Assembly: GCF_910592395.1 (NCBI RefSeq)
Contig: NC_088311.1
Span: forward strand, 18,912,501-18,976,500
Length of the DNA: 64,000 nucleotides
Source of the DNA: Lineus longissimus
Taxonomy: Eukaryota > Nemertea > Pilidiophora > Heteronemertea > Lineidae
Direction: 5' to 3'
A model generated the notes under the pieces. It was not told where the DNA came from. It was given only the letters and a program-made list of their open reading frames with translations, and did no database searches. Positions within the stretch are counted from its first letter, which is position 1. Each line of letters starts with the position of its first letter. Below are positions 1-54,225 of the stretch, in pieces. Made by a program: the position numbers and the translations under genes.

Positions 1-1
1 A

Positions 2-9308: not shown

Positions 9309-10093
9309 GGTGTATTCCTGTTTCGCCTATTCCTGTTCCGCCTATTCCTGTTTCGCCTATTCCTGTTTCGCCTAATTCCTGTTTCGCCTATTCAAATGTA
9401 TTGCTAACTTCCCCACAGACGTAGGAATATGAACCGTCCCTTACTGACCGACCAAACCCGAGGAGAGCCACATATGTACGCATTGAAACAATACGTCAAT
9501 GGAGAGAGGGACATAATGAGTTACGTTGATGCCATCAGTTACCGTGTCTGACATAATATCATGATATGTATTTTCCACCTTGTTTGACTTTATATGTGCT
9601 GTACCTACATGTATATTATGACATGGGTTTTACAGCTGATTTTGATCAAATGATTATGAGAATGTACAATATTATGTATTTTTATCAAAAACTCATGAAT
9701 TCAGTTTTCATAAAATAAACGACTGCTTTACTCTACTTAATCTATTAGTTTTTACTGTGTGTCAGTATGGTCCTATGGTCCTATGGTCAAATAAGTCCCG
9801 GACTGTCCCCGCTTTCAAGGTGACTCTTTCAAAACGGTCATGGCATAACAAAGTTGATGGCATTTGATTAGTCAAATTGTCATCACATCGTTAACCTCAT
9901 CCAATTGTCCCCTCACATTTTCCCCATAAAATGGACATGCATCCCTAAGGTTCCCCGTGGGAGAGTCGATTTATTGTAGGGGTACTGGAAAGTAGGCGAA
10001 ACAGGAATAGGCGAAACAGGAATAGGCGAAACAGGAATTTTGTAGGCGAAACAGGAATAGGCGAAACAGGAATAGGCGAAACAGGCATAAACC
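9309..10093. mobile_element. foldback DNA element with tandem-repeat inverted ends
   Basis: Both ends are arrays of a 15-bp unit, ATTCCTGTTTCGCCT on the left (about 9314-9396) and its reverse complement on the right (about 9990-10086). The extreme tips GGTGTATTCC and GCATAAACC are imperfect inverted repeats. It is flanked by the 8-bp duplication TAAACAAC (9301-9308 and 10094-10101). No coding frame inside, so it is non-autonomous. Confidence 0.85.
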
Positions 10094-10101
10094 TAAACAA
10101 C

Positions 10102-12778: not shown

Positions 12779-15700
12779 ATGGTCGTCTTTAAACGGGATC
12801 AACTGAAAACCTATGTGGTGGTGGGCGCATTTCTAGGCCTCTGTTGCTGGGTGGCTGTTCTGCAAACGAGATATGAAAGCAGGATAAAGGTAAGATCGAT
12901 TATTGATTACCTCAAAGTAAATATATTGGAGAAGCCTTCTAAGGCAACTCGGCGATATCCATGAATGTGTCTGTTTATCAACTAGCTGCATGTTCCTGGT
13001 ATCAGGAAATATGCTTGCGGCCGCACTGCGATACAGTTTATCAGTTCACTTGTCCTATTTTCCTGGGTTCTTTTTTTACGGTAAACCTGTCAAACGATAA
13101 CGATTTCGTTAGTTTAACCCAGGAGCTGTTGATACATGTCCAAGTCCGCCGTCATAAATGCCAACAACAGTGCCAACAAAAATGCCGATCAACGGTCTAT
13201 CTTCGTTTTGCGCCTCGGTATCGTGCCAAGCTCACCACTAACGAATAAATGTAATTATTTATAAAATACTGTATATTTTGTCTGAAGGCAAATGTCGGTA
13301 AATTCCGTGAAAATGTCAACAATGTTGAACGACCCCGCCCTAATTAAGAAAACCTGTCCCGAAACGCTTATGAAATGGCATGGGAAGCTTTGAAAGACGC
13401 GGTGAATTAATGATCCGAAAGGTTTTGACGTTCAGACGTTGGCACAGTACTCAACCTTGTATTTATACCATAAATAACATCACCATTCACTAGCACTTAA
13501 GATGTATCGTTTTAACCAATCTAAAACAGGCATTCAACCACTGCCTGGTGTAGAAAGTTCCCTGTGGTTTTTTTTACATGCCATTGAAGTCGTCACTGGA
13601 CCAGGTCTGCGTCGTGCCAGGACCGCTTTATAAAAGGAAAACTTGGGCAAAATCATTTTAAAATGGCCCTGTTTTCTCCTTCTTTTAAAACTTCTGATCA
13701 TGTATCTTTAGGCATAGTCATTCCCAGTGAACGACTCGACTGTGCAGCCCAATCGCTGAATACGGACATTACCAAATTACTTTTGAATGACCAACTCAAA
13801 GTCTACTACGTTTCTTTACTGAATCATTTAAGCAACTTGAAGAAGAGGGAAGTGTTCGGGTAAAACGTAGTGCCGGATCCTCTGGTCAAAATGCAGCTGG
13901 TAGGTACCCGATCCAACGATTTCGGATATTAAAAAATTAGTGATAGTATAGTCTGATTGAGATGTCCATACATTTATATCTTCCATGTACAATTTGTAGC
14001 TAATCAATCATATACTGCATTCTGGTTAAAATATCATAATGTGTCCGGTATAATTGTATTATGATTGAAGATAGGATGAAATTAGAATGATTGTTATATT
14101 TTTTTACTATAGTTTATCCACCAGATACCCAGTTGTAAGGTCATAGAGGTATGACTTGCCCAGAGATATATCTCCTCCCACCCTTTTATATATTACATGT
14201 CAAAATCAGGATTACCAACAAATGAGGCATTGATAAAAACTTTGCAACTGCCAGTCACCTTTTTCTGCGTCTGTAAGAATGACGCAATTCATCCTATTGG
14301 GGTCAACAAGCCATATTTCATTCCACTCTGACTTTACAATGCAAGGCTATAGTCAGTTACATTGTTATGTTAATGCACTAAATCACGACTGTGTCCATGA
14401 TTGTGTTCATTTCCGTCTTGAACATTCAAGGGTCACCAGTGACTTTGCCCTATAACTCTTGCCTATAATCTCCATTGAAGTGGTCTGATTATGATACAGG
14501 ATGGCAATTCGTCTTTAAACACTTAATATTGCAAACATCCTGATCGGTTTTCCATTTTTGAAATTCAGTTTTCGGACAAGATATGTAATAAATATCCTAT
14601 CTTATCGTGCAGGTGGCGCTACGTACATTCGCTGGGGTCGTACGGTTTGTCCAGCTGATGCAGAATTAGTATATGCAGGTAAATATGACTGACAGTCCTA
14701 CGAGACGTCTTACATATTCATGTAATAGTCTGACATGTTGGTCCCTGATGCTCTTTTAGTCCCGCGTAAAATGGACATGGCTATCTACAACCCAAACATC
14801 CTGGTGCCAAGTTTTGAAACTAATTTTAACTGGCTTTCAAAGTTGGGGCCAACTTTGACGCCCTACATGCGCTCCATGCAGTCACCAGAAGCGATCCTTG
14901 TCACAAATATACTGTGGTAAAAAACAATCATAAATTGTGTGCAAATAGCGGCGTCACGGCACAAGCCACGATGTGTTAGCATTTGGGGCTGAAACTGTTA
15001 CGGTCTTTATCTGTTTTTAACAAATTTCACCATGTTGTTCTTATTTGAGTTTGCCCAAGTAATTTCCTTTTTCCACCAGGTTACGGAGGAGCTCAGTACT
15101 ATACCCATGTAGGTGGCTCTGCCGAGTATATCTGTGTATCCGACAAACCGGAATACGCCTCAAAGACGGCTGCAAGTGAAGACGACCGGGCATGGCTGTA
15201 CGGTGTCGAACTCCAAGTATCTGGCACGAATTTCTTTAGCACTGCCAACGCTGATCCGAATGGGCTCCATAATTCCGATATCCGATGTGCAGTATGCAGG
15301 AATAGGGTTCGCTCTAGCATGGTATGTATATAACCTCTTCCTGCGTTGTGTGTAGTGTTGATATAAAGACAGAAAATACTGGTAGTAAAAGCAAAACGTA
15401 AAAGCGTTTACTCGTGGTAACTTTGTAGTAAATGTATCAGGAAAAAGGTATATTTTGCATACATAGTCATTACCTCTACGTGTCTGTTCACAGCACTGTT
15501 TTATTTCAGGCCAGTTTTGATTATACATTTTGAGAGATACGAGCCAGGTCACGAAATCACGACCTTCCGATCACATTGCGGGCGCTTTCCGACTGTGCCA
15601 CCAAGCTCCTAAAACATGATATTGAATGAACAGCCTATGTTTCACCAAGGATCTCAGGGCGTGCCGCTGAAATATCACTTGTGACACTAGAAATTGCACT

Positions 15701-16036
15701 CAATGTAAATATCCCAAGACAATCGTCCCCTCCGGCCTTGGCTATGATGAAAACCTTTCTCCTATGCTCCTCTTTCAGGTGATGATTCCAGGAACGAAAT
15801 CATGCCCAAGTAACTGGCAGAAGGAGTACTGGGGCTACCTGATGACGGGACATTACAAACACAAGGCTGCCTACAGCTACGCATGCGTGGATGACGCACC
15901 AGAAGCTGGGGGTGAAAATGGCGCCAGAAATGATGGGGGAGGACTGATGTACCACGCACAGGGTTCGTGTGGCTCTCTGCCATGCCCTCCGTACGTCCAA
16001 GGCTTCGAGGTGACATGTGTTGTTTGCACAAAATAG
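12779..16036 (+). CDS. array copy 2: membrane-anchored short-chain collagen C4-like protein
   Basis: Five exons with phase-consistent GT..AG junctions: 12779-12889, 13833-13899, 14613-14678, 15080-15321, 15779-16036, giving 247 residues. Exon 1: MVVFKRDQLK, hydrophobic segment TYVVVGAFLGLCCWVAVLQT, then RYESRIK; a type II signal anchor. Exon 2: acidic stalk with SVRVKRSAG, a furin-type RXKR site. Exons 3-5: C4-like domain (GGATYIRWGRTVCP, EYICVSD, RCAVCR, VMIPGTKSCP, YACVDD, LPCPPY, TCVVCTK) with 10 cysteines. No Gly-X-Y collagen stretch was found between the exons. The start is chosen because the ATG and exon 1 are conserved in five copies. Exon 2 rests on phase, splice signals and conservation, not on a transcript. 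Family function is not established; matrix or recognition roles are inference. Confidence 0.82.
15540..15609 (-). repeat. tRNA-derived SINE remnant in intron 4 of copy 2
   Basis: Same position and box-A/box-B-like motifs as the remnant at 5371-5445, with the extra GGGCGC segment missing there. Confidence 0.5.
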
Positions 16037-18647: not shown

Positions 18648-21600
18648 ATGGTCGTCTTTAAACGGGATCAACTGAAAACCTATGTGGTGGTGGGCGCATT
18701 TCTAGGCCTCTGTTGCTGGGTAGCTGTTCTGCAAACGAGATATGAAAGCAGGATAAAGGTAAGATCGATTATTGATTATCTCAAAGTAAATATATTGGAA
18801 AAGCCTTCTCAGGCAACTTGGCGAAATCCATGACTGTGTCTGTTGATCAACTAGCTGCATGTTCCTGGTATCAGGAATTATGCTTGCGGCCGCTCTGCGA
18901 TACAGTTTATCAGTTCACATTTGTCCTATTTTCCTGGGTTCTTTTTTTGTGGTAAAACCTGTCATACGATAACAATTTCGTTAGTTTAACCCAGGAGCTT
19001 TTGATACATGTCCAAGTCTGCCGTCATAAATGCCAACAACAGTGCTGTTTAAGTCGTTGTTCAACATTTCGGATATTTTCACGAGCGTACAAACCGTTCG
19101 AAAGGAGGGATGTTTTTAATGTACGTGTCCGCGTACGCTTTTCAGAAAATCAAATATGCCGATCAACGGTCTATCTTCGTTTTGCGCCTCGGTATCGTGC
19201 CAAGCTCTCCACTAACGAATACGTGTAATTTATTTATAATGTACTGTATGTCGGTAAATTCCGTGAAAATGTCAACAATGTTGAACGACCCCGCCCTAAT
19301 TAAGAAAACCTGTCCCGAAACGCTTATGAAATGGCATGGGAAGCTTTGAAAGACGTGGTATATTAACGATCCGAAAGGTTTTGACGTCACCAGACGTTGG
19401 CACAGTACTCAACCTTCTTTTTATACCATAAATAACATCACCATTCACTAACACTTAAAATGTATCCTTTAACCAATCTAAAACAGGCATTCAACCACTG
19501 CCTGGTGTAGAAAGTTCCCTGTTGGTTTTTTTACATGCCATTGAAGTCGTCACTGGACAAGGTCTGTGTCGTGCCAGGACCGCTTAAAAAAATGAAAACT
19601 TGGGCAAAATTCTTTTAAATTGGCCCTATTTTCTCCTTCTTTTAAAACATCTGGACAGGTATCTTTTGGCAAAGTCCTTCCCAGTGAACGACTCGACAGT
19701 ACAGCCCAATCGCTGAATACGGCCGTTACCAAATTACTTCTGAATGACCAACTCAAAGTCTACTACGTTTCTTTACTGAATCATTTAAGCAACTTGAAGA
19801 AGAGGGAAGTGTTCGGGTGAAACGTAGTGCCGGATCCTCTGGTCAAAATGCAGCTGGTAGGTACCCGATCCAATGATTCTGATTTTCTAAAATTAGTGAT
19901 AGTATAGTCAGATTGAGATGTCCATACATTTATATCTTCCATATACAATTTGTAGCTAATCAATTATATACTGCATTCTGTTTAAAATATCATAATGTGC
20001 CCGGTATAATGGATGATAGAAGATGGGATGAAATTAGAATGATTGTTATATTTGTTTACTATAGTTTATACACCAGATATCCAGTTGTAATGTCATGGAG
20101 GTATGACTTGCCGAGAGATATATCTCCTCCCACCCTTTTATATATAACATGTCAAAGTCAGGATTACCAACAAATGAGGCATTGATAAAAACTTTGCAAC
20201 TGCCAGTCACCTTTTTCTGCGTCTGTAAGAATGACGCAATTCATCCTATTGGGGTCAACAAGCCATTATTTCATTCCACTCTGACTTTACAATGCAAGGC
20301 TATAGTCAGTTACATTGTTATGTTAATGCACTAAATCACGACTGTGTCCATGATTGTGTTCATTTTCGTTTTGAACAATGGGTGTCTACAAAACTAAGAC
20401 CTAAGACAGACCTAGGACAGACCTTAGACCTAAGACCTACAAAACTAAGACCCTCCACCTACAAAACTAAGACCCCCACCTACAAAACTAAGACCTACAA
20501 TACTAAGATCCCACCTACAAAACTAAGACCCCTACATACAAAACTACATGAACTAGGTCCCAGGCATCCTGAGCAAATCAGGCATCTTACTGCCCTCCCC
20601 TATTTGAGAAATGAAGTTGGAATGTGATGGACACTTAATTGTATTTAAGCAAGATAATCCTGTTAGCAGTACTCTGAGAATGTTTTGATGTTTGAATTCA
20701 TATCAGAATTCAACAAGACGGAGAAAAATTTAAAAAATACTGTGGAATCCCTCGGGAGCTGTTTCGCATGCATGGCAACAGGGCAGAGTCGGAGAGTAAC
20801 AGTGAACACTGCATGATTTCCTTTTAAAGGATGCAGAGACCCTATTGCTCGAAATCTTATAACTGTATAGAGCCACCCCTGACTCCTCAGGCTAAACTGT
20901 GCAAAACAAATGGTGGACAATACGTGTTTTGTGCATGATAGAAACATCCACAGTGGCACTGCTATTGCATCAAATACTTGTTAGAATGTAATGCTATTCC
21001 CATTACCACATGCCTGTTATAAATACACTCCATTTTAACCTCTGATGACAGACCGACTGCATGCATACAAGTCTAGTAAAAGGATGGCCTACCCTGAGAA
21101 CCATAATATTTTTGTAGGTCTTAGTTTTGTAGGTGGGGATCTTAGTTTTGTTGGTCTTCGTTTTGTAGGTGGAGGGTCTTAGTTTTGTAGGTCTTACGTC
21201 CTACGTCTTACGTCTTAGTTTTGTAGACACCCCTTGAACAATCAAGGGTCACCAGCGACTTTGCCCTATAACTCTTGCCTATAATCTCCATTGAAGAGGT
21301 CTGATTATGATAAAGGATGGCAATTCGTCTTTAAAGGCCATAACTCCAGGTATTTTGCCATTTTCTGCTGTAAGACGATTTCAAAAGTGTACCTAACACT
21401 TTATACAGTACAGAAAACCCAATGCAATTAGCTCCATCCATTTTGAAGATATAGCCATTTATGTGTTTGGCAACTTGATTTAAGGAATTAATACCGAGCT
21501 GGCGGTCATTGGTTGTATAATCAAGACCGCTCGGGTAGACCGAAAATGCAGTCCAAAACCCGAGGCGCTTCGCCGAGGGTTTTGGACGTAATTTGAGGTC

Positions 21601-24106
21601 TACCCGAGCGGTCTTGATTATACAACCAATGACCGACAGCGAGGTATTAATTTCTATTCTAAAAGGTTTCAAAATTAAACAAATTAAATACGATTTGAAA
21701 GGTATATATGTTCCGTTTTCGTCAAAGAATGATCCAGCCTGGTGTCCGGAACTCCGCCATATTGTTGCTTGTGAAGATGACGTCACGCAGCAAGGGAATT
21801 CCCAGTCTGCTAGCTCGATTTCTACCATTTCCTCGTCTTTGACCTCTTCTGAATCCTGACTGACGACCTCGAAAGAGTCCTCGGGTATCCTCCCTACTTC
21901 ACAAATCCCAATATATCAGGGAATACTTCAAAATCTCGTGTTCTTGACATTGTTTTGTGGGGCTGAGTCGTTGCTTCTTGGTGAAAATAATTCGTCTGCT
22001 AAAATTCAGAATTTTATACCTACCCAGGCGGTCATTGGTTACGATACCAAGACCGCTCCGATCAAAACGAGGCGTAATGTATTTTGTATTTGAAACAATG
22101 ATATACTGTGACTAAGGCCTTTTAGAATACCTAATCAGGCTAGCAAACTGGCTTGTTAAAGCCAGGCGGCGGGTTCAGCAAAAGTTGTGATGTAGATCAG
22201 GCTATTGCCCTACTTGGGAGGACAAATATCAATGAATGCTCTTAAAATTGATATATGAAGTCTGTTTTTCATTGACATTCGATATACCCTATAATAAGGT
22301 ATGGTAATACAGACAAATTTATACCATTATAGTAAGAAATCAAACATCAGTCTGATCTATGTCAGTAAACTTGCCGCCTGACTTCACTAAGAAACCTAAC
22401 CAAGGCTGTTACATAACATGTAAACAAAACAGTTAATCTTGCTTTATCTCTGGACTGGGTGCTTCAATTTTGATCAAACTTGATTTAATGCGGAGCTTTA
22501 AGTCTACTCTTTGAGGATCTGTACATGTCATGCAATCATAAAAGCAGGAGTCGTGGCCTTTAAACACTTAATATTGCAAACATCCTGATCGGTTTTCCAT
22601 TTTTGAATTTCCGTTTTCGGACAAGATATGTAATCAATATCTTATCTTATCGTGCAGGTGGCGCTACGTACATTCGCTGGGGTCGTACGGTTTGTCCAGC
22701 TGATGCAGAATTAGTATATGCAGGTAATTATGACTGACAGTCCTACGAGACGTCTTACATATTCATGTAATAGTCTGACATGTTGGTCCCTGATGCTATT
22801 TTAGTCCCGCGTAAAATGTCCATGGCTACCCCCAACCCAAACATTCTGATGCCAAGTTTTGAAACTAATTTTAACTGGCTTGCAACGTTGGGGCCAACTT
22901 TGACGCCCTACATGCGCTCCATGCAGTCACCAGAAACGATAACTTGCCACAAACATTTTTTGGGAAAAAGACAATTCCGAATTGTGGGCAAATAGCGGCT
23001 TCACAACACAGCCACGTTATATTTGCATTTGGGGCTGAAACTGTTACGGTCATTATCTGTTTTTGACAAATTTCACCATGTTGTTGTTATATGAGTTTGC
23101 CCAAGCCTTTTCCTTTTTCCACCAGGTTATGGAGGGGCTGAGCACTATACCCATGTAGGTGGCTCTGCCGAGTATATCTGTGTATCCGACAAACCAGAAT
23201 ACGCCTCGAAGACGGCTGCAGGTGAAAACGACCGGGCATGGCTGACCGGAATCGAACTCCAAGTAGACGGTATTAACTTCTTTAGCACTGCCAACGCTGA
23301 TCCGCATGGCCTCTACAATTCCGATGTCCGATGTGCAGTATGCAGGAGTAGAGTTCGCACCAGCATGGTAAGTTGAACTATACCCTCATCCAGTATTTAT
23401 AATGTTTATACCCTCATCCAGTATTTATAGTCTTTATACCCTCATCCAGTATTTATAGTCTTTATACCCTCATCCAGTATTTATAGTGTTTATACCCTCA
23501 TCCAGTTATTATTGTGTCATACGTATACTTACGATGTAGATACTACTAGCATGCAAAGTCTAACGTATTTACTCGTAGTACTGGCAAAACGTATGCAATG
23601 TATTTAGTATCAAACATAGATTAAGATTTTCTCAATATGTTTTTTGTATGGGAACGCGGACGCTATTTCACTGGGCCACCACGCTCACAAAACATATCTT
23701 AAGGAACCGCCCATGTTTAACCAAATGGTTCTCTGGACATGCCGCTAAAAATATCACTAGTAACTCTAAAAATTGTTCTCAATGCTATATCCTAGGACAA
23801 AGTCGATCCCTCCTGCATTAGCTATCAACTAAAGCTTCCCCATTTCAGCTCATGATTCCAGGAACGAAGTCATGCCCAAGTAACTGGCAGCAGGAGTACT
23901 GGGGCTACCTGATGACGGGACATTACAAACACAAGGCTACCTACAGCTACGCATGCGTGGATTACGCACCAGAAGCTGGGGGTGAAAATGGCGCCAGAAA
24001 TGATGACGGAGGACTGATGTTCCACGCACAGGGTTGGTGTGGCTCTCTGCCATGCCCTCCGTACGTCCAAGGCTTCGAGATAACATGTGTTGTTTGCACA
24101 AAATAG
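18648..24106 (+). CDS. array copy 3: membrane-anchored short-chain collagen C4-like protein
   Basis: Exons 18648-18758, 19790-19856, 22658-22723, 23126-23367, 23849-24106; 247 residues. Same plan as copy 2: signal anchor, RVKRSA furin-type site, 10-cysteine C4-like domain. An in-frame ATG lies 18 bases upstream (MKVLFK then MVVF); the downstream start is preferred because it is conserved in all copies. Exon 5 begins with CTC (Leu), as in copy 4, against GTG (Val) in copies 1, 2, 5 and 6. Unique replacements include Tyr in VDYAP, Phe in LMFHAQ and Trp in GWCGS. Intron 2 is swollen by two DNA elements (20380-21233, 21337-22558) and intron 4 carries a 28-bp minisatellite. Confidence 0.82.
20380..21233. 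mobile_element. MULE-like foldback element in intron 2 of copy 3
   Basis: Ends are GGGTGTCTACAAAAC and GTTTTGTAGACACCC, followed inward by tandem CTACAAAACTAAGACC-type units on the left and the complementary array on the right. A 9-bp direct duplication TTGAACAAT flanks it (20371-20379, 21234-21242). Copy 2 has the uninterrupted site near 14420 (TCTTGAACATTCAAGGG). Nine-bp duplications with long inverted ends point to the Mutator-like group; no transposase frame inside. Confidence 0.85.
21337..22558. mobile_element. 1.2-kb TIR element in intron 2 of copy 3, with internal hairpin
   Basis: Begins GGCCATAACTCC and ends GGAGTCGTGGCC, flanked by TTTAAA on both sides. Copy 2 reads straight through the site (GTCTTTAAACACTTAATA near 14511). 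Parts match 6009-6485. At 21483-21653 lies an almost perfect inverted repeat with ~55-bp arms (TTAATACCGAGCTGGCGGTC and complement), with another partial copy of that arm near 22026, suggesting a nested MITE. A 165-codon minus-strand frame across the hairpin has no recognisable domain. Confidence 0.65.
23378..23510. repeat. 28-bp minisatellite in intron 4 of copy 3
   Basis: Five units of TATACCCTCATCCAGTATTT plus ATAGTGTT-type ends, directly after the exon 4 donor. The same array is at 30120-30257 in copy 4 and absent from copies 2, 5 and 6. Confidence 0.9.
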
Positions 24107-25219
24107 AGAATTTCAAGCGTTCAAACGGCCTGAGACGACACCACCATTTGCTTTTAACACGTTTTCTATTAAAGACGAAATTCGCGCTCCTCGAATTATA
24201 GGTTTAAGTTGAGGACGGAGCTTTTGATATGTCTTTCTGCTTGGATCGAGCTATTCAGAAAGGGAAATTAAAGTAGGTCACCACCTCCTAGATTTTAAGT
24301 CAAATATGCCTAAATGTGAAAATCCAGCATCCAGAAAATTTCTGCTAGTTTCAATACAAAACGCATAAACTGCCACCTGTCATGAACATGATACACTGAT
24401 TATATGTTGCACTCTTGCAGTCAGTTGCAATCAATGAATCGAGTTGCAGTTCACATTTCTGTCATTATTGCAAGACAAAGCCATCGCACGTTAAGCGATT
24501 CATTATAGCAGCTACTGTATTCATTAACGGGTTTTTACAAGTATCTCTCACTCATTAGCAAATACATAAAGTAGTTGCAATGCATCGCAAATAGAACGCT
24601 TACTGAGCGACAGGTTGCAACTATACTTACTTAGGTGTATCTCATTAGATCAGGTGATTCTAAATGATTTGAATAATTTAGGAAACAGTACAAGGCAAAT
24701 ATTACGTTTTTGCCAAATACCACGCAGTTTAGAGAATTCACACCTAGCCGAATGCACGGTCTGTTGTCTCCTTAAAAACCCCGCCCTCGCCTCAGCTAAT
24801 ATTTTCATTATTCTACTGTCATATCAATGTGTTATCAGGGCAAATCTTGATATCATCGACACCCACGAAAAAGCTTCCATGGGATCGTTAGGCCTAAACC
24901 GACAAGGGCAATTAAACGGTAATGAATAGTCATATAAAACAAAGCCGGCAAAGGTTTAATAAAGTGTATGTAACCATAGCTGACATAGCGTGTAAATCTC
25001 GATGCCCTTAAAAAATACTTGGTAGAGAAATAAAAGCAACTGGCAATAGCCTACATGTCAATAATCACATCATTCTTGACCTGTAAGTATTCATGAAGCA
25101 GAAAAAAACAACCCTAGCTGATAGCGTCATCTTGGAACCACCAAGGTTGTTACCTCTCATCGATTTCAAACTATATTATCACTGTTCATTGAAAAGGAGC
25201 GTGAAAATATGAGAATCAG

Positions 25220-25520
25220 ATTGATATAGCGTGTAATCTCATCGTTCTTAAAAATTATCTCATAATCAAACGGAACAAACTGCCAATAGCTTGTATAGCG
25301 TGAAATCTCATTCTAGAATATTATCTAATAATCTAATGAACCAACCGCCAATAGCTTGTATAGCTTTTATTATCGTCCTTGAACATCATCATTTTTTCAA
25401 ACTGCAATAGCTTGCTAACATAGCAAGTAAGTGTCGTCTTTCGTGGAACATTATTAATAGATATATAGTAGTCAAATAAAGCAAATAAGCCCTAGTGGCT
25501 TGTATAGCAAGTAAACGTCG
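25220..25520. repeat. degenerate ~65-bp tandem repeat (copy 3-4 interval)
   Basis: About four units of the AATAGCTTGTATAGC family, homologous to 7440-7730 and 17180-17520. Confidence 0.65.
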
Positions 25521-26236
25521 CCGTTCTTTTGTTTATTGCTGTTGACTCTTGTGCCGAATGCGCGCACATTCGGAAGGCGTAGATGAGGAATCGTCTCAAA
25601 GGAGATTGTCAACCTTGATGCTTGGAGGGTGATGTCATTTCAAACCAGTCCTGACGATACAATTGTCGGGAAGGAAGTATATCACGGTGATCAAGTGCAG
25701 GCATATCTCTACTTGCTGTAAATTAGTCAAGATATTTTCACATATAGCATCTGAAATGTCATCTAAACGAATACCTCCCAAGCTCTGTATTCCATTTTAT
25801 TTAAATTCCAATCGATGGAAGTGGAATATCTGACTGATTCTTCACATCCACTTGCCCATGGTCAAACAGCTCAAATACTTTAAGGGCTGTTGATTTGATA
25901 TACTGGTATACTCTAACTGAATATAAAACTTATTTGCTCACAACAGTAAGTCATTAAATATCTTTTTGACTTTTGAATTGCTGGTCTGTGCAAACAAAAT
26001 GTTGGAAGAATTTTAGTCAGTTTGGAGGCCTTTAAAAGTTTAAGGAACATGAATAGTACATACAGTGCTGTACGACATGCACCATGCAGTTACCTGTCAT
26101 GCCAAAACTGACAGTTCTTAGTAGCCTAACTTGGATCAGTGTCTGGGGTTACTTAATGGACCGGTTATCCTGATCTTAAAACAGGGAGAGTAAAAAATAT
26201 GGCGTTTTATTTAAAATTGGTGGTTTTAGTGATGTT

Positions 26237-26418
26237 AACGGTGGCTGGGAAAGGACATCGAAAAAAAAACAATTCTCGGCGGGACGACTTATTATCGCGG
26301 GGGGACGACTTAGTAAGTCGGGGGGACGACTTAGTAAGTCGGGGGGACGACTTAGTAAGTCGGGGGGACGACTTAGTAAGTCGGGGGGGACGACTTAGTA
26401 AGTCGGGGGGGGGGGGGG
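26237..26418. repeat. G-rich palindromic 21-bp tandem repeat insertion
   Basis: Five to six units of GGGGGGACGACTTAGTAAGTC, each containing the palindrome GACTTAGTAAGTC, ending in a run of about 14 G. It replaces about 25 bp present in copy 3 (18214-18240). On the plus strand it reads as an RGDDLVS peptide repeat; no sign that it is translated. Confidence 0.85.
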
Positions 26419-26720
26419 AATTAACTCGGAGTAAGACTGACTGTTATGGTAGAGCAACATTTATCGTCATTTTATACAAGATGATATCACGAATTTCTGT
26501 TTTTCAGTTCTTTACCTAATCAATAGATATGTGATACCCTAATTCATTTGCAAGATTTGTTGACAAAGTTTCCATTTTGTGTGTTGTTTGAGAAATACTT
26601 ATTCTAATCTCCGATTTAAAAACAGTCTGTCGCTAAGATTGTTATTCTACCAATGTGATGTTACCATGATGCTTACCTTTTTAAGTATAACCGAGGATAA
26701 CTCATTTCATTAGTGTCGAT

Positions 26721-26737
26721 TATATACGTGTATATAG
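26721..26737 (+). promoter_or_regulatory. TATA-like core promoter candidate of copy 4
   Basis: TATATACGTGTATATAG about 90-105 bp upstream of the ATG, same position as in copy 3. Confidence 0.4.
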
Positions 26738-26826
26738 AAGTTCTTGGTTTATGAGACAAGCGTATCTGGGCCAGGTTAGAACGCAATATCTCAGCTGGTC
26801 TATTTGAGATCAAAGTTCTCTTCAAG

Positions 26827-29800
26827 ATGGTCGTCTTTAAACGGGATCAACTGAAAACCTATGTGGTGGTGGGCGCATTTTTAGGCCTCTGTTGCTGGGT
26901 AGCTGTTCTGCAAACGAGATATGAAAGCAGGATAAAGGTAAGATCGATTATTGATTACAATGTACCTCAAAGTAAATATATTGGAGAAGCCTTCTCAGGC
27001 AACTTGGCGAAATCCATGACTGTGTCTGTTGATCAACTAGCTGCATGTTCCTGGTATCAGGAATTATGCTTGCGGCCGCACTGCGATACAGTTTATCAGT
27101 TCACATTTGTCCAATTTTCCTGGGTTCTTTTTTTGTGGTAAAACCTGTCCAACGATAACGATTTCGTTAGTTTAACCCAGGAGCTGTTGATACATGTCCA
27201 AGTCTGCCGTGATTAATGTCAACAACAGTGCTGTTGAAGTCGTGGTTCAACATTTCGAATATTTTCACGAGCGTATAAACCGTTCGCAAGGAGGGATGTT
27301 TTTAATGTACGTGTACGCGAACGCTTTTCAGAAAATCAAAAATGCCGATCAACAGTCTATCTTCGTTTTGCGCCTCGGTATCGTGCCAAGCTCTCCACTA
27401 TCGAATACGTGTAATTTATTTATAATGTACTGTATGTTTCGTCTGAAGGCAAATGTCGGTAAATTCCGTGAAAATGTCAACAATGTTGAACGACCCCGCC
27501 CTAATTAAGAAAACCTGTCCCGAAACGCTTATATGGCATGGGAAGCTTTGAAAGACGCGGTATATTAACGATCCGAAAGGTTTTGACGTCACCAGACTTT
27601 GGCACAGTACTCAACCTTGTATTTATACCATAAATAACATCACCATTCACTAGCACTTAAGATGTATCCTTTTTACCAATCTTAAACAGGCATTCAACCA
27701 CTGCCTGGTGTAGAAAGTTCCCTGTTGGTTTTTTTACATGCCATTGAAGTCGTCACTGGACCAGGTCTGCGTCGTGCCAGGACCGCTTAAAAAAATGAAA
27801 ACTTGGGCAAAATTCTTTTAAATTGGCCCTATTTTCTCCTTCTTTTAAAACATCTGGACAGGTATCTTTTGGCATAGTCCTTCCCAGTGAACGACTCGAC
27901 AGTACAGCCCAATCGCTGAATACGGGCGTTACCAAATTATTTCTGAATGACCAACTCAAAGTCTACTACGTTTCTTTACTGAATCATTTAAGCAACTTGA
28001 AGAAGAGGGAAGTGTTCGGGTGAAACGTACTGCCGGATCCTCTGGTCAAAATGCAGCTGGTAGGTACCCGATCCAATGGTTTCTGATTTTCTAAAATTAG
28101 TGATAGTATAGTCAGATTGAGATGTCCATACATTTATATCTTCCATATACAATTTGTAGCTAATCAATTATATACTGCATTCTGGTAAAGAATATCATAA
28201 TGTGTCCGGTATAATGGTATTATGATAGAAGATGGGATGAAATTAGAATGATTGTTACCATAGTTTATACACCAGATATCCAGTTGTAATGTCATGGAGG
28301 TATGACTTGCCCAGAGATATATCTCTGACTTTACAATGCAAGGCTATAGTTAGTCACATTGTTATGTTAGTGCACTAAATCACGTCTGTGTCCATGATTG
28401 TGTTCATTTCCGTTTTGAACAATGGGTGTCTACAAAACTAAGACCTAAGACAGACCTAGGACAGTATGACCTAACTAAGACCCTCCACCTACAAAACTAA
28501 GTCCCCACCTACAAAACTAAGAACTACAACAATAAGATCCCCACCAACAAAACTAGACCTACAAAACTCAGACCCTCACCACCACCTACAAAACTAAGAC
28601 CCCTACATACAAAACTACATGAACTAGGTCCCAGGCATCCTGAGGAAATCAGGGCATCTTACTGCCCTCCCCTTGTTTGAGAAATGAAGTTGGAATGTGA
28701 TGGACACTTAATTGTATTTAAGCAAGATAATCCTGTTAGCAGTACTCTGAGAATGTTTTGATGTCTGCATGATTGATTGAACACTGCATGATTTCCTTTT
28801 AAAGGATGCAAAGACCCTATTGCTCGAAATCTTCTTACTGTAGAGCCACCCCTGACTCCTCAGGCTAAACTGTGAAAAACAAATGGTGGACAATACGTGT
28901 TTTGTGCATGATAGAAACATCCACAGTGGCTCTGCTATTGCATCAAATACTTGTTGGAATGTAATGTTATTCCCATTACCACATGCCTGTTATAAATACA
29001 CTCCATTTTAACCTCTGATGACAGACCGACTGCATGCATACAAGTCTAGTAAAAGGATGGCCTACCCTGAGAACCATAATATTTTTGTAGGTCTTAGTTT
29101 TGTAGGTGGGGATCTTAGTTTTGTTGGTCTTAGTTTTGTAGGTGGAGGGTCTTAGTTTTGTAGGTCTTACGTCTTACGTCTTACGTCTTAGTTTTGTAGA
29201 CACCCCTTGAACAATCAAGGGTCACCAGTGACTTTGCCCTATAACTTTTGCCTATAATCTCCATTGAAGAGGTCTGATTATGATTAAGGATGGCAATTCG
29301 TCTTTAAACACTTAATATTGCAAACATCCTGATTGGTTTTCCATTTTTGAATTTCCGTTTTCGGACAAGATATGTAATCAATATCTTATCTTATCGGGCA
29401 GGTGGCGCTACGTACATTCGCTGGGGTCGTACGGTTTGTCCACTTGATGCAGAATTAGTATATGCAGGTAATTATGACAGACAGTTCTACGAGACGTCTT
29501 ACAAATTCATGTAATAGTCTGACATGTTGGTCCCTGATGCTATTTTAGTCCCGCGTAAAATGTACATGGCTATCCACAACCCAAACATCCTGGTGCCAAG
29601 TTTTGAAACTAATTTTAACTGGCTTTCAACGTTGGGGCCAACTTTGACGCCCTACATGCGCTCCATGCAGTCACCAGAAACGATAACTTGCCACAAACAT
29701 TTTTTGGGAAAAAGACAATTCCGAATTGTGGGCAAATAGCGGCTTCACAACACAGCCACGTTATATTCGCATTTGGGGCTGAAACTGTTACGGTCATTAT

Positions 29801-30849
29801 CTGTTTTTAACAAATTTCACCATGTTGTTGTTATATGAGTTTGCCCAAGCCTTTTCCTTTTTCCACCAGGTTACGGAGGGGCTGAGTACTATACCCATGT
29901 AGGTGGCTCTGCCGAGTATATCTGTGTATCCGACAAACCAGAATACGCCTCGAAGACGGCTGCAAGTGAAGACGACCGGGCATGGCTGAACGGAATCGAA
30001 CTCCAAGTAGACGATATGAACTTCTTTAGCACTGCCAACGCTGATCCGAATGGCCTCCACGATTCCGATCTCCGATGTGCCGTATGCAGGAATAGAGTTC
30101 GCACCAGCATGGTAAGTTGAACTATACCCTCATCCAGTATTTATAGTGTTTATACCCTCATCCAGTATTTATAGTGCTTATACCCCCATCCAGTATTTAT
30201 AGTGTTTATACCCTCATCCAGTATTTATAGTGTTTATACCCTCATCCAGTTATTATTGTGTCATATGCATACTTACGAAGTAGATACTACTAGCATGCAA
30301 AGTCTAACGTATTTACTCGTAGTACTGGCAAATCGTATGCAATGTATTTAGTATCAAACATAGATTAAGATTTTCTCAATATGTTTTTTGTATGGGAACG
30401 CGGACGCTATTTCACTCGGCCACCACGCTCACAAAACATATTTTAAGGAACCGCCCATGTGTAACCAAATGGTTCTCTGACATGCCGCTAAAAATATCAC
30501 AAGTAACTCTAAAAATTGTTCTCAATGCTATATCCCATGACAAAGTCGTTCCCTCCTGCCTTAGCTATAAACTAAAGCTTCCCCATTTCAGCTCATGATT
30601 CCAGGAACGAAGTCATGCCCAAGTAACTGGCAGCAGGAGTACTGGGGCTACCTGATGACGGGACATCACAAACACAAGGCTGCCTACAGCTACGCATGCG
30701 TGGATGACGCACCAGAAGCTGGGGGTGAAAATGGCGCCAGAAATGATAACGGAGGACTGATGTACCACGCACAGAGTGCGTGTGGCTCTCTGCCATGCCC
30801 TCCGTACGTCCAAGGCTTCGAGATGACATGTGTTGTTTGCACAAAATAG
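26827..30849 (+). CDS. array copy 4: membrane-anchored short-chain collagen C4-like protein
   Basis: Exons 26827-26937, 27993-28059, 29402-29467, 29870-30111, 30592-30849; 247 residues. Signal anchor identical to copy 3; the furin-type site reads RVKRTA (Ser to Thr after the cleavage point); exon 3 has TVCPLDAE instead of TVCPADAE. All 10 cysteines are kept. Against its sister copy 3, exon 5 differs in eight codons, all replacements, and exon 4 in thirteen codons, eleven of them replacements. Intron 2 carries the same foldback insertion as copy 3 at the identical site. This is the most compact complete unit. Confidence 0.82.
28424..29206. mobile_element. MULE-like foldback element in intron 2 of copy 4
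   Basis: Same ends, same 9-bp duplication TTGAACAAT (28415-28423, 29207-29215) and same insertion site as 20380-21233, but 783 instead of 854 bp because the end arrays and centre differ. Identical site and duplication mean the insertion was copied with the gene. Confidence 0.85.
30120..30257. repeat. 28-bp minisatellite in intron 4 of copy 4
   Basis: Five units of TATACCCTCATCCAGTATTT plus ATAGTGTT-type ends, orthologous in position to 23378-23510. Confidence 0.9.
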
Positions 30850-33014
30850 AGAATTTCAAGCGTTCAAACGGCCTGAGACGACACCACCATTTGCTTTTAA
30901 CACGTTTTCTATTAAAGACGAAATTCGCGCTCCTCGAATTATAGGTTTAAGTTGAAGACGGAGCTTTTGATATGTCTTTCTGCTTGGATCGAGCTATTCA
31001 GAAAGGGAAATTAAAGTAGGTCACCACCTTCTAGATTTTGATTTTTGATTCTAAATGTGAAAATCCAGCATCCAGAAAATTTCTGCTAGTTTCAATACAA
31101 AACGCATGAACTGCCACCTGTTATGAACATGATACACTGATTATATGTTGCACTCTTGCAGTCAGTTGCAATCAATGAATCGAGTTGCAGTTCACATTTC
31201 TGTCATTATTGCAAGACAAAGCCATCGCACATTAAGCGATTCATTATAGCAGCTACAGTATTCATTAACAGGTTTTTGCAAGTATCTCTCACTCATTAGC
31301 AAATACATAAAGTAGTTGCAATGCATCGCAAATAGAACGCTTACTGAGCGATAGGTTGCAACTCTACTTACTTAGGTGTATCTCATTAGATCAGGTGATT
31401 TTAAATGATTTGAATAATTTAAGAAACAGTACAAGGCAAATATTACGTTTTTCGCCAAATACCACGCAGTTTAGAGAATTCAGACCTAGCCGAATGCACG
31501 GTCTATTGTCTCCTTAAAAACCCCGCCCTCGCCTCAGCTAATATTTTCATTATTCTACTGTCATATCAATGTGTTATCAGGGCAAATCTTGATATCATCG
31601 ACCCCACGAAAAAGCTTCCATGGGATCGTTAGGCCTAAACCGACAAGGGCAATTAAACGGTAATGAAGAGTCATATAAAACAAAGCTGGCAAAGGTTTTA
31701 TAAAGTGTATGTGACCATAGCTGACAAAGCGTGTGAATCTCGATGTCCTTGAAAAATACTAGGTAAATAAATAAAAGGAACTGGCAATAGCCTGCATGTC
31801 AATAATCACATCATTCTTGACCGCGTGTAATCTCATCGTTCTTGAAAATTATCTCATAATCAAACGGAACAAACTGCCAATAGCTTGTATAGCGTGAAAT
31901 CTCATTCTAGAATATTATCTAATCATCTAATGAACCAACCGCCAATAGCTTGTATAGCTTTTATTCTCGTCCTTGAACATCATCATTTTTCTAAACTGCA
32001 ATAGCTAGCTAATATAGCATGTAAGTGTCGTCTTTCGTGAACATTATTAACAGATATATTGTAGTCAAATGAAGCAAATAAGCCCTAGTGGCTTGTATAG
32101 CAAGTAAACGTCGCCGTTCTTTTGTTTATTGCTGTTGACTCTTGTGCCGAATGCGCGCACATTCGGAAGGCGTAGATGAGGAATCGTCTCAAAGGAGAAT
32201 GTCAACCTTGATGCTTGGAGGGTGATGTGATTTCAAACCAGTCCTGACGATACAATTGTCGGGAAGGAAGTGTATCAGGGTCACCAAGTGCAGACTTATC
32301 TCTACTTGCCGTAAATTAGTCAGATAATTTCACATCTAGCATCTAAAGTGTCATTTGTCGTGATTGATCACGACAAACGATATTTCAGGTGCTATATACC
32401 AGATGTAAAAAGTTGCTCTTATCTTTTTTACATTGTAATTATCGATTTCAAGAAGTGTATTTGTTTAGCCACAAGACTGTCTGAACGAGGACCTCCCAAG
32501 CTCTGTATTTCATTTTATTAAAATTCCAATCGATGGAAATGGAATATCTGACAAATTGTTCACATCCACTTGCCCATGGTCAAACAGCTCAAATACTTTA
32601 AGGGCTGTTGATTTGATATACTGGTGTACTCTTACTGAATATAAAACTTATTTGCTCACAACAGTAAGTCATTAAATATCTTTTTGACTTTTCAATTGCT
32701 AGTCTGTGCAAACAAAAGTTGGAAGAATTTTAGTCAGTTTGGAGGCCTTTAAAAGTTTTAGGAACATGAAGAGTACATGCAGTGCTGCACGACATGCACC
32801 ATGCAGTTACGTGTCATGCCAAAACTGACAGTTCTTAGTAGCCTAACTTGGATCAGTGTATGGGGTTACGTAATGGACCGGTTATCCTGTTCGGAAAACA
32901 GGGAGATTAATCTCACACATTAAGGGCTGTCTAGAAATGACGACCTGGAGAAGCTTACTGAAACAATTACGTGTATATCAAACTCCAAATATAGATTAGA
33001 TCATCCATACTTGC
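30850..33014. other. 3' region of copy 4 and intergenic sequence to the 77-bp minisatellite
   Basis: Conserved 3' block, then the intergenic unit with about four ~65-bp repeat units (31825-32110). From about 32345 to 32507 there is a segment absent from the units upstream of copies 2-4 but present upstream of copies 5 and 6. No gene seen. Confidence 0.65.
32354..32377. promoter_or_regulatory. 24-bp perfect inverted repeat upstream of copy 5
   Basis: TTTGTCGTGAT-TG-ATCACGACAAA: 11-bp arms with a 2-bp centre. Repeated upstream of copy 6 at 42933-42956. It lies at the left end of a ~165-bp segment specific to copies 5 and 6. It could be a dimeric protein-binding site or the end of a small element. 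Confidence 0.35.
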
Positions 33015-33655
33015 AAAGGAATATAACACAATGCCGCATCCACCCACCCACTCTCAGATGAGATAAAAAGGAAAACAGAAACAGTTATATCAAAGGAATA
33101 TAACACAATGCCGTATTCACCCACCCACTCTCAGATGAGATAAAAAGGAAAACAGAAACAATTATATCAAAGGAATATAACACAATGCCGCATTCACCCA
33201 GCCACTCTCAGATGAGATAAAAAGGAAAACAGAAATAATTATATCAAAGGAATATAACACAATGCCGCATTCACCCACCCACTCTCAGATGAGATAAAAA
33301 GGAAAACAAAAACAATTATATCAAAGGAATATAACACAATGCCGCATTCACCCACCCACTCTCAGATGAGATAAAAAAGAAAACAAAAACAATTATATCA
33401 AAGGAATATAACACAATGCCGCATTCACCCACCCACTCTCAGATGAGATAAAAAGGAAAACAAAAACAATTATATCAAAGGAATATAACACAATGCCGCA
33501 TCCACCCAGCCACTCTCAGATGAGATAAAAAGGAAAACAAAAACAATTATATCAAAGGAATATAACACAATGCCGCATCCACCCACCCACTCTCAGATGA
33601 GATAAAAAGGAAAACAGAAACAATTATATCAAAGGAATATAACACAATACCCCCC
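33015..33655. repeat. 77-bp minisatellite upstream of copy 5
   Basis: About 8.3 units with the phrases AAAGGAATATAACACAATGC, CCACTCTCAGATGAGATAAA and GGAAAACAGAAACAATTATA; strict 77-bp spacing. The paralogous array upstream of copy 6 has about 12.5 units. Confidence 0.95.
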
Positions 33656-34025
33656 CCCTCAAATGAAAATTAAAAATGAAAACAGAGTGTAAATTCCCAG
33701 GTTAATTAAGGCTCCTAATTGAAAGGAATGCGAATGATTTAAATATTTTAGTTTCTTTAAAAACACCCATGACCAACACTTTGGATCTTTCTTATCTTTT
33801 GTTCTATACTGATGCTGTGTGATTCGATAATTGAACAGTTTACATTAAGCAATATTGTGTTTTCCTTGAAATCGGTGGTTTAAGTGAAGTTTTATGTACA
33901 ATACAAAAAAAATCAATTCTGAGTAAGACTGACAGTTTACGGTAGAGCAACAGTTAAGTTTATTTGAAAGAATAGAGATGATATCAAGAATTTCTGTTAT
34001 TCCGTGTTTATGTAATGAATACCTA

Positions 34026-35688
<1,663 letters not shown>

Positions 35689-36080: not shown

Positions 36081-39000
36081 ATGGTCGTCTTTAAACGGGA
36101 TCAACTGAAAACCTATGTGGTGGTGGGCGCCTTTCTAGGCCTCTGTTGCTGGGTAGCTGTTCTGCAAACGAGATATGAAAGCAGGATAAAGGTAAGATCG
36201 ATTATTCATTACTTCAAACATGTCAAAGCAAATATATTGGAGAAGTCTTCTCGTGAAACTTGGCGAAATCCATGACTGTGTCTGTTGATTAGCTAGCTGC
36301 ATGTTTCTGGTATCAGGAATTATGCTTGCTGCCGCACTGCGATACAATTTTAGGTTCACATTTGTCGTATTTTCCTGGGTTCTTTTTCGCTTAAAACCTG
36401 TCAAACAATAACGATTATAAAACTGTAAATGTAGCTGTTGATACATGTGTCGCCAGACTGCAGTTGTACATGCCGACAACAGTGCTGATTCAGGCGTGGT
36501 TCAACATTTCGGATATTTTCACGAGCGTACAAACCGTTCGCAAGGAGGGATGTTTTTAATGTACGTGTACGCGTACGCTTTTCAGAAAATCAAAAATGCC
36601 GATCAACGGTCTATCTTCGTTTTGTGCCTCGGTATCGTGCCAAGCTCTCCACTATCGAATACGTGTAATTTATTTATAATGTACTGTATGTTTCGTCTGA
36701 AGGCAAATGTCGGTAAATTCCGTGAAAATGTCAACAATGTTGAACGACCCCGCCCTAATTAAGAAAACCTGTCCCGAAACGCTTATGAAGTGGCATGGGA
36801 AGCTTTGTTTACCAGCTATTGCGGGCCTAGCCAATCAAGCCAATTAGTGCACCTGCTTAATTGGTCCTGGCAAGCTCAATTCGAAATACAAGCTCAATTC
36901 GAAATACTCCTATAATTTCATTAAAATCAAACACTGACAGGGCCAACTCGCTATGCAACTTAATATGCCACAGACTATATATCGCCAGAGACTGTAAATA
37001 CAACGACCTTTTATAAGGGTTTCTCGATTCTAGCGGGAGGAATTCACGAACGAACGAACGAGCCTAATGGAAAATGCATAGGAAATATCAATAAAGTTGG
37101 CTTTTTGGGCGGGGTGTTAAAATAATCCCAACTCCCGACTTCTGACACAATTCTATATATGTCTAGGTATTTACTTGCAAAATTTGGAGTGATTTGGATG
37201 AAAATTCGATGGGTCCATCTATAGGTTGAAAATTTTGGTAAATCTGTAATGCTTCACTCGTAGCCCGTAGTGTAAATTCCTGAGAAATTGGGTTTTGGGG
37301 GCTTTTCTAGCTGCGCTAGCTCCGAAACTATACATTTGATACAAACTCCCGACTTCAGACGTGGTTGATATAACTCTTAGGATTATATTCCCAAGATTTC
37401 AGCTTTATTGGAGAAAAATTCATAGTGTCCATAGGGGTGCTGAAAATTGGAGGATTTTCAATTTTTTGCCCAACAAATATGCGAAAAATATTACTTTCCA
37501 CCTAGAATTAATCATAATTTCGCAAACTATCATAAAGTACTTCCTTGCGACAATCATTTGTGAAGCTTTCAAAACTTTTGGCTGATTTATTTGCCCCTTA
37601 ATTAGCAAAAACCAAACATTTTAGTGTTTGCATGCAACAATGCACAGGAGGCTAATTGCCAGATTAATTCACACCTGTCCAATCTCAAACAATAGGAATG
37701 ATGGCGTCTCCCTCTATTCAAAACAGAGTGTGCTAGGCCTGCCATAGCTGGTAATGAGTTGAAAGACGCGGAATATTAATGATCCGAAAGGTTTTGACGT
37801 CACCAGACGTTGACACAGTACTCAACCTTGTATTTATACCATAAATAACATCACCATTCACTAGCATTTAAGATGTATCGTTTTAACCAATCTAAAACAG
37901 GCATTCAACCACTGCCTGGTGTAGAAAGTTCCCTGTGGGTTTTTTTACATGCCATTGAAGTCGTCACTGGGCCAGGTCTGCGTCGTGCCAGGACTGCTTT
38001 ATAAAAAGAAAACTTGGGCAAAATTCTTTTAAATTGGCCCTGTTTTCTCCTTCTTTTAAAACATCTGGACAGGTATCTTTTGGCGAAGTCCTTCCCAGTG
38101 AACGACTCGACTGTACAGCCCAATCGCTGAATACGGCCGTTACCAAATTACTTCTGAATGACCAACTCAAAGTCTACTACGTTTCTTTACTGAATCATTT
38201 AAGCAACTCGAAGAAGAGGGAAGTGTTCGGGTGAAACGTAGTGCCGGATCCTCTGGTCAAAATGCAGCTGGTAGGTAACCGATCCAATGCTTTCGGTTTT
38301 TTTTTTTAATTAGTGATAGTATAGTCAGATTGATCATATACTGCACTCTTGTTGAGATATCATAATGAGTCCGGTATAATGGTATTATTATAGAAGATAG
38401 GATGGCCTACATACTATTGACATGTATGGATAGGGAATTTTGTTGGAAGGAAAATGACACCAAGAACCCCCGATTCGGTTCAGTAGTTTTAATTCCAGGG
38501 CCATGGTTGTGAAAAAAAGTCAGAAGCTCTTTTAAATGGTATACGACCAGCACAATTTTGATTTTAAAAGGATTATTGCGCACACTGAAAAAAGGATAAT
38601 CGTAACGGAATAAAATAAACTTTATTTGCAAATTTAACATCATGTGCGGAAGTATGGCACAATTCGGCTTTTCCGTTGCTGACTCAGCTGACACTCAGCT
38701 AAACTTAATTAAAACTTAACAACACGTGTACAACATGCACATATACATCCATTTCCCGGTATCATTGTACATATTGTATTGAGTATCATCACATATGTCC
38801 AATGTCCTGATTTCTCAGCTGGTGTCTCAGATACGTTCTTCAATGTGATGGCCTTCCACTCGAATGCAGACCTCAACTCTCCTGTTCATGTCCGCCATGG
38901 CACGTATTATCATGTCCCTTGGTAGATTTCTTAAAAGCTCTTCCATACGTTGTCTAAGCATTTGCAGATTCCCGGCGAACGATGGAACATACACCAGAGA

Positions 39001-42956: not shown

Positions 42957-43587
42957 CGATATTTCAGGTGCTATATACCAGATGTAAAAAGTTGCTCTTA
43001 TCTTTTTTACATTGTAATTATCGATTTCAAGAAGTGTATTTGTTTAGCCACAAGACTGTCTGAACGAGGACCTCCCAAGCTCTGTATTTCATTTTATCAA
43101 AATTCCAATCGACAGAAATGGAATATCTGACAAATTGTTCACATCCACTTGCCCATGGTCAAACAGCTCAAATACTTTAAGGGGTGTTGATTTGATATAC
43201 TGGTATACTCTTACTGAATATAAAATTTATTTGCTCACAACAGTAAGTCATTAAATATCTTTTTGACTTTTCAATTGCTAGTCTGTGCAAACAAAAGTTG
43301 GAAGAATTTTAGTCAGTTTGGAGGCCTTTAAAAGTTTTAGGAACATGAAGAGTACATGCAGTGCTGCACGACATGCACCATGCAGTTACGTGTCATGCCA
43401 AAACTGACAGTTCTTTGTAGCCTAACTTGGATCAGTGTATGGGGTTACGTAATGGACCGGTTATCCTGTTCGGAAAACAGGGAGATTAATCTCACACATT
43501 AAGGGCTGTCTAGAAATGACGACCTGGAGAAGCTTACTGAAACAATTACGTGTATATCAAACTCCAAATATAGATTAGATCATCCAT

Positions 43588-52517: not shown

Positions 52518-52556
52518 GGTCAGCTAAAGGTAATAATGTAAAAGCATGCATATATC

Positions 52557-53924: not shown

Positions 53925-54225
53925 TGTTTAAATCGGCGGCTCGAATTTTCGAAAATACCCGTAAGCAAAGATGACGTAAATTGCCAACATTCGGTGTATT
54001 TTGTATTGAGAGAAAAGTCGCTCGACGGAAAACAAGTAGGGGAATCCCATTTATCGGTTCACTTCCTGGTTCGATTACTGAGAAGAGTACACGCAGTGTA
54101 CAATGAAATGCATGTTGATATTTTCTGTTCAGGAGGGTGCTCTGAACGTACGTATACTTCCTGTGGACTTTCCATAGAGCCGTAGAACGTGAAATACTAT
54201 ACGGGGAGCGAGGAAGTTTGTCACT

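Follow-up and report, generated by a model that had tools for sequence, protein, structure and literature searches.

Replacement-rich divergence on a conserved ten-cysteine frame in a tandem array of spongin-type NC1-like genes of Lineus longissimus

Introduction

What keeps the coding exons of neighbouring gene copies apart when their introns stay nearly alike? The question is raised by a 64,000-base stretch of DNA from the nemertean Lineus longissimus, the whole of which we analysed and refer to as the window. A search of the animal's own genome assembly (391,118,348 bases, 30 contigs) placed the window at chromosome 4:18912501-18976500. Its + strand carries five genes with all five exons and, of a sixth gene, the last exon. 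The encoded protein of about 247 residues is composed of an N-terminal signal anchor, an acidic linker, a furin-type site, and an NC1-like domain. Amino acid replacements are in excess in this domain, and they recur at the same positions across independent paralog groups. To our knowledge, little is known about immunity in the nemertean phylum.

Results

Divergence between sister copies in the window

The copies are numbered 1 to 6 along the window. In copies 3 and 4, exon 4 (23126-23367 and 29870-30111, respectively) and exon 5 (23849-24103 and 30592-30846, ending at 24106 and 30849 with the stop codon) are open in one shared frame; exon 4 is bordered by AG and GT, and exon 5 by AG and the stop codon. 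A first-pass annotation of this DNA had counted the codon differences between the two copies, and our recount agrees. Exon 4 has 13 differing codons out of 81, of which 11 are replacements and 2 are silent, and in exon 5 all 8 differences among 85 codons are replacements. The signal-anchor exon 1 has one silent difference in 37 codons and zero replacement, and the ten cysteine codons are identical. Two replacements lie outside the earlier count, namely A to L in exon 3 (1 of 22 codons) and S to T in exon 2. The annotation had set the resulting 19:2 against roughly 3:1 expected without selection. The count stands, but not its use as lone evidence: the Nei-Gojobori sites amount to about 390 : 108, i.e. 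3.6 to 1, and 20 replacement versus 2 silent nucleotide changes yield a one-sided p of 0.11. The 19:2 ratio was hence rejected as sole evidence of selection.

The non-coding sequence provides another yardstick. Between copies 3 and 4, non-coding divergence is 3.1% (133/4238, a figure that takes in the 67-base exon 2) and that at replacement sites is 5.1%, which is 1.64-fold higher (p = 0.033). Of the codons that differ between copies 5 and 6, 8 are replacements and 2 are silent in exon 5, as against 2 and 0 in exon 4; replacements in this pair are 2.55-fold over the non-coding level (45/4458; p = 0.011). Their homology ends directly past the exon 5 stop codon (window 50093 onward), so that the exon 5 of copy 6 sits at the edge of a duplication or conversion, and their silent changes in exon 5 (2 of 53 sites) also exceed the intron level. 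For these two reasons, and with a conversion artefact considered, copies 5 and 6 taken alone are ambiguous. The two pairs share four replaced codons (exon-4 33 and exon-5 31, 53, and 63), an overlap of 20 and 10 replaced codons among 188 that has p = 0.013, or 0.010 when stratified by exon. The excess over the non-coding rate in both pairs argues against relaxed constraint. The latter belongs to an account without adaptive change, in which the copies are recent, constraint is relaxed, and exon differences were imported by gene conversion.

Codon site models

We fitted the models M0, M1a, M2a, M7, M8, and M8a with F3x4 frequencies in a script of our own rather than in PAML, and site probabilities are naive empirical Bayes values. 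The window set has five copies for exons 3 and 4 and six for exon 5, each with a separate parsimony tree built on these short exons. Twice the log-likelihood difference (2dl) is 15.27 for M1a/M2a and 15.34 for M7/M8 (p = 5e-4), and M8a/M8 gives p = 5e-5. When the subsets are taken alone, M7/M8 gives p = 0.04 for exons 3 and 4 and p = 0.004 for exon 5. The overall omega is 0.69, and most of the protein is therefore constrained; in the best model, about 75% of codons have an omega near zero. Together with the retention of all ten cysteines, this speaks against relaxed constraint.

Gene conversion was handled via tree-shape and simulation checks. 2dl exceeds 5.99 in 15/15 and 105/105 trees. We completed 152 null simulations, 76 without and 76 with a tree switch within exons. 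Under M1a without the switch, 0/76 rose above 5.99, hence 0/76 reached the observed 15.27; the simulations with the switch are weighed in the Discussion.

The array on chromosome 4

The array extends upstream of the window and holds at least 15 exon-4 and at least 13 exon-5 sequences over chromosome 4:18,840,282-18,962,589, the genome-wide counts of the family likewise being lower bounds. Four duplicate units were dropped from the full-array models, leaving 11 exon-3+4 and 10 exon-5 sequences. IQ-TREE was used for the trees of this set, in which supports range from 23 to 99, and for those of the chromosome 12/13 set described below. M7/M8 is 17.0 for exons 3 and 4 (p = 2e-4) and 16.6 for exon 5 (p = 2.6e-4). 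Sites with a probability above 0.98 are exon-4 33, 35, 41, 48, 50, 64, 65, and 68, and exon-5 11, 31, 53, and 63. The residues found are G, S, K, and W at exon-4 33; A, D, E, N, and T at 35; and S, P, A, F, and D at 48.

The upstream part also contains a 29.5-kb segmental duplication (18842457-18901458, L009-L015) of four array units with 99.875% identity (25 mismatches and 9 gap openings) and identical exons 3-5, which is either a tandem duplication of recent date or a duplicate produced by the assembly. The unit at chromosome 4:18849361 and its duplicate at 18878819 have exons 1-4; exon 5 was not detected before the next exon 1, and each is probably a broken gene. At 18864884-18866101, and in a duplicate from 18894342, exons 1-2 without exons 3-5 lie ahead of another exon 1-2 pair.

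Paralog groups on other chromosomes

Fourteen further loci were read on chromosomes 2, 3, 11, 12, and 13. Four of them (L025-L028) are same-strand copies within 53 kb on chromosome 12. Their exon 4 (73-76 codons in gap-free columns) differs by 6-14 replacement and zero silent codons in 6/6 pairs, and their exon 5 by 5-11 replacement and 0-2 silent codons per pair; in several codons, more than one base differs. Divergence is 3-10% in exon 4 and 3-7% in exon 5, versus 0.4-1.5% in intron 4, 1.5-2.3% in intron 3, and 1.5-3.7% in the 400-base 3' flank, the intron and flank figures being biased downward because they come solely from segments with 80% identity or more. Exon divergence thus far exceeds the non-coding one, which argues against relaxed constraint, and imported tracts would bring silent changes of the kind missing from the aligned part of exon 4.

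The site models cover the chromosome 4 sets and a chromosome 12/13 set, which consists of L025-L028, L034 (chromosome 13), and L029 (chromosome 12, exon 5 only). For the latter, M7/M8 is 45.7 (p = 1e-10), and 2dl exceeds 13.8 in 15/15 and 105/105 trees. The M7/M8 comparison that the annotation had proposed as a check is therefore significant in the window, the chromosome 4 array, and the chromosome 12/13 set. The chromosome 2 group (L035-L037) was compared by pairwise counts.

We then compared the variable positions between groups. In exon 4, 17 are common to chromosome 4 and chromosomes 12/13 (27 and 21 variable, respectively, in 74 columns; p = 1e-6), and in exon 5, 8 are common (16 and 16 in 85 columns; p = 0.0015). 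The exon 5 positions of the chromosome 2 group, which include 25-27, overlap with those of chromosome 4 and chromosome 12 (p = 0.0024 each). The annotation had proposed a diversifying binding surface on a fixed disulfide scaffold. Diversification on such a scaffold is borne out by the site models, the tree shapes, the exon divergence above that of introns, and the recurrent positions, whereas the binding surface is something that we infer.

Gene structure and cleavage site

Exon 1 encodes the 37-residue signal anchor (or signal peptide) and has zero replacement differences in 10/10 pairs of the five complete window copies. The phases of exons 1 and 3 demand between them an exon whose length is 1 modulo 3, and this led to exon 2; the search was for an AG...GT stretch of such length that is open and alike in 5/5 copies. 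It has 67 bases in all five and encodes QLEEEGSVRVKR, followed by S or T. The RVKR furin-type site is present in each and ends a short acidic linker. Exons 3 (GGATYIRWGRTVCP...), 4, and 5 jointly encode a domain of 188 residues with ten cysteines. In tblastn, exon 4 has a weak but repeated likeness to exon 5, with a best E of 0.003 in the window and of 1.7e-5 in the paralog L025 (E-values being for small searches), and the domain is therefore a tandem pair of related halves.

All copies are on the + strand. Copy 1 enters the window with exon 5 and its stop codon (5589-5846); its first four exons precede the window (exon 4 at chromosome 4:18908864), and its intron 4 is 9 kb long, with window positions 1-5300 inside it. 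Exons 1 to 5 of copy 2 are at 12779-12889, 13833-13899, 14613-14678, 15080-15321, and 15779-16036. In copy 3, exons 1 to 3 are at 18648-18758, 19790-19856, and 22658-22723, and are followed by the above-mentioned exons 4 and 5, which encode the first and second NC1-like halves, respectively. The corresponding exons 1 to 3 of copy 4 are at 26827-26937, 27993-28059, and 29402-29467. Copy 5 has its five exons at 36081-36191, 38204-38270, 39285-39350, 39752-39993, and 40567-40824, and copy 6 at 45339-45449, 47462-47528, 48550-48615, 49017-49258, and 49835-50092. Exon 5 is given with the stop codon throughout.

The order of anchor, cleavage site, and domain is contiguous in three chromosome 2 paralogs. 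There, a single open frame leads from a Met across a hydrophobic stretch into the domain, and shows in turn MASRESVKTGVLLFILCGLITWNAI (the second G being replaced by D in one of the three), a linker rich in acidic residues, and RPKR directly before the domain. Of the 14 loci, 7 (L030, L032, L033, and L035-L038) have an R-x-K/R-R-S site ahead of exon 3. Among the other seven, five have no such site in the fetched stretch, that of L026 looks like chance, and that of L029 is downstream of exon 5.

Family identity of the domain

The spongin family is characterized, in the part of PMC5395295 on which we draw, by ten cysteines, of which seven are common to collagen IV and three are spongin-specific, and by the absence of an HSQ motif. 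Ten cysteines are invariant in 11/11 diverse aligned members of the present family (an eleventh occurs in two of them), and the HSQ motif occurs in 0/11. The agreement in cysteines is one of count. The tandem duplication of one subdomain, a trait of collagen IV NC1, is present in the likeness of exon 4 to exon 5. An octopus short-chain collagen C4-like peptide, as given in an excerpt of PMC10142993, shares the CGSLPCPPYV motif and matches exon 5 at 16/24 residues with one hand-placed gap, this being one short peptide. The annotation's label of a C4-like domain accordingly agrees with the spongin family in the ten cysteines, the two related halves, and the octopus peptide. Single extra cysteines are located at exon 4 position 8 of copy 1, exon 4 position 78 of unit D, and exon 4 column 40 of L025; they could make covalent dimers.

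Spongin short-chain collagens have the same NC1-like domain of two halves with ten cysteines and no HSQ. Different from them, the present family has no collagen stretch that we could find, an anchor and an RxKR site ahead of the domain, a large tandem array, and diversifying positions. Aouacheria et al. are said to have described spongin short-chain collagens as collagen IV variants in 2006. On both strands, there are no Gly-X-Y runs of six or more in the 144-kb array stretch including the window, and no Gly-X-Y run with at least three P/K in any of the 14 paralog loci. The family was not classed as a short-chain collagen proper, as these stretches showed no Gly-X-Y domain ahead of the NC1-like domain. 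The missing Gly-X-Y and the contiguous anchor, RPKR, and domain of the chromosome 2 paralogs therefore make the family a relative of the NC1 domain.

Pfam C4 (PF01413) gave no match in 11/11 members at E up to 10. First Pfam scans of the domain found no family, and later ones found four unrelated and weak families (best E 0.035), each in 1/11 members. Sequence and profile searches of solved structures returned no collagen, their outcome being either no match or chance matches. The link to collagen IV rests on the literature. The same partly available paper describes stand-alone ctenophore NC1 genes, which likewise have an NC1 domain and a signal peptide and no collagen tail; they differ in that their domains are those of collagen IV, and their divergence is described as high, with no mention of a selection test in that part (PMC5395295).

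Discussion

The reading we prefer, and regard as probable though far from assured, is that these genes encode shed recognition modules diversifying against changing partners. The 37-residue anchor would take the protein into the secretory path, furin-type cleavage at RVKR, before S or T, would shed the NC1-like domain, and the ten cysteines, through their presumed pairing, would form a fixed disulfide scaffold. The candidate positions under selection are 6-9, 33-37, 41, 48-50, and 64-68 in exon 4, and 25-28, 31, 51-58, 63, and 74-75 in exon 5. Selection would drive these apart between duplicates and so give each copy a different binding face. The variable positions may form one such face, and the partners would be non-self targets that change (skin and mucus microbes, or else prey and predators) and not the matrix of the animal itself. 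A protein that outpaces its own introns with every scaffold cysteine kept would bear the mark of selection to bind changing targets. Families of immune and allorecognition receptors share the diversifying selection on a domain, as well as an extracellular location, which the anchor and the family membership suggest here.

A wider proposal, which we make tentatively and consider doubtful, is a nemertean innate recognition repertoire built from the spongin/collagen-IV-type NC1 domain. It would comprise anchored, furin-shed, collagen-free modules on at least three chromosomes with hypervariable recurrent positions in both halves, with the fold of basement-membrane assembly recruited as a scaffold for immune or mucosal recognition. 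If true, a matrix-assembly fold, freed of collagen and multiplied in tandem, has turned into a changing recognition scaffold. As a test set, the array combines numerous copies within a single genome with introns that are nearly identical and exons that diverge. We know of no earlier report of a diversifying spongin-type NC1 array, and one narrow query joining 'short-chain collagen' and 'positive selection', which covered titles and the starts of abstracts, found none.

Several points weigh against the shed recognition module. The ratio of replacement to silent changes is not decisive by itself for copies 3 and 4, as shown above, nor for copies 5 and 6 (p = 0.49). With a tree switch inside each exon, 4/76 simulations rose above 5.99 and 1/76 reached 15.27. 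Conversion that homogenises introns and not exons may explain part of the pattern; it would still need selection that keeps the exons apart, but the dating of the changes would be different. In exon 5 of the chromosome 2 group, the members of a pair differ by 3-10 replacement and 4-6 silent codons, without a clear excess. The overlap of variable positions could on its own reflect loose constraint, which might also yield such coincidence, and hence supports the location of these positions more than selection. The exon-wise AlphaFold2 models are poor (mean predicted local distance difference test scores, pLDDT, of 48.7 and 39.7) and give the notion of one face no structural support. Excerpts of two papers present relatives as products of matrix or glands rather than as receptors: two short-chain collagen C4 genes are up in the pedal disc of Exaiptasia (PMC6626399), and in Nematostella all spongin-like genes but one have their expression mainly in neuroglandular cells (PMC12549020). 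A further relative appears as a table row, 'Short-chain collagen C4 5', in an extract of a bivalve genome paper (PMC13093298).

The serious rival is an offensive or defensive secretion, which we judge to be unlikely. The cleaved domain would be part of the proboscis secretion or skin mucus and diversify against prey or predators, like the duplicated toxin families of nemerteans. A signal, a propeptide with a basic cleavage site, a cysteine-scaffold domain, and exons faster than introns, which the present genes would share, are a usual anatomy of secreted toxins, and the same diversifying pattern can be shown by secreted toxins, mucus proteins, and reproductive proteins. On the other side, we know of no toxic activity for the spongin-type NC1-like domain, nor of a sequence relation between nemertean toxin families and the present one. 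Nemertean toxin families such as cytotoxin-A and nemertides, which are from the same phylum, diversify via duplication and positive selection between copies according to the consulted part of PMC10674772. The neuroglandular expression in Nematostella fits this rival too (PMC12549020, in part), as does the octopus peptide, which the excerpt of PMC10142993 lists from ink. Neither 'collagen' nor 'spongin' is used in the main text of the nemertean proteo-transcriptome papers PMC11768458 and PMC7460313, and 'collagen' is absent from PMC10674772 as well, although such texts may list toxins only; PMC9132205 mentions collagen three times, without a spongin-type family.

Allorecognition or gamete recognition, in which membrane-held copies would serve self/non-self or species recognition, is improbable. 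The N-terminal hydrophobic anchor, the tandem cluster, and the hypervariable positions are in its favour, but the 37-residue anchor exon is the entire N-terminus and leaves no room for a signalling tail, the RxKR site would release the ectodomain, and nemerteans do not form colonies. The pattern itself fits immunity, a secretion aimed at prey or predators, and allorecognition alike, and these cannot be separated by it; the shed recognition module remains our preference. The account without adaptive change draws on the 19:2 ratio taken alone, the tree-switch simulations, and the broken look of some array members (the unit and duplicate without exon 5), and is made very improbable by the constrained codons, the retained cysteines, the excess over non-coding sequence, and the missing silent changes.

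Other features of the window

Mobile elements and repeats lie among the copies. A frame near 3014, within intron 4 of copy 1, is by eye what we take to be a retroelement integrase-like one; a Pfam scan of 146 residues of it gave no match. A reverse transcriptase frame at 9949-12507 (+; RVT_1, E = 8.5e-28) is situated between copies 1 and 2 and presumably belongs to an element without long terminal repeats (non-LTR). Between copies 4 and 5, a Tc1-like transposase at 34256-35317 (-; HTH_Tnp_Tc3_2 and DDE_3) consists of two adjoining open stretches split by a stop. Two 77-bp tandem arrays, about 97% alike, are located downstream of copies 4 and 5 (32860-33811 and 43434-44621, respectively). A gene for an EF-hand protein is at 52104-52523 (-; EF-hand_1, E = 8e-18). 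Downstream of the array, 54193-59465 (+) contains two DED stretches (E = 1e-20 and 3e-11) and a caspase domain (E = 1e-41), which would together make one caspase-8-like gene.

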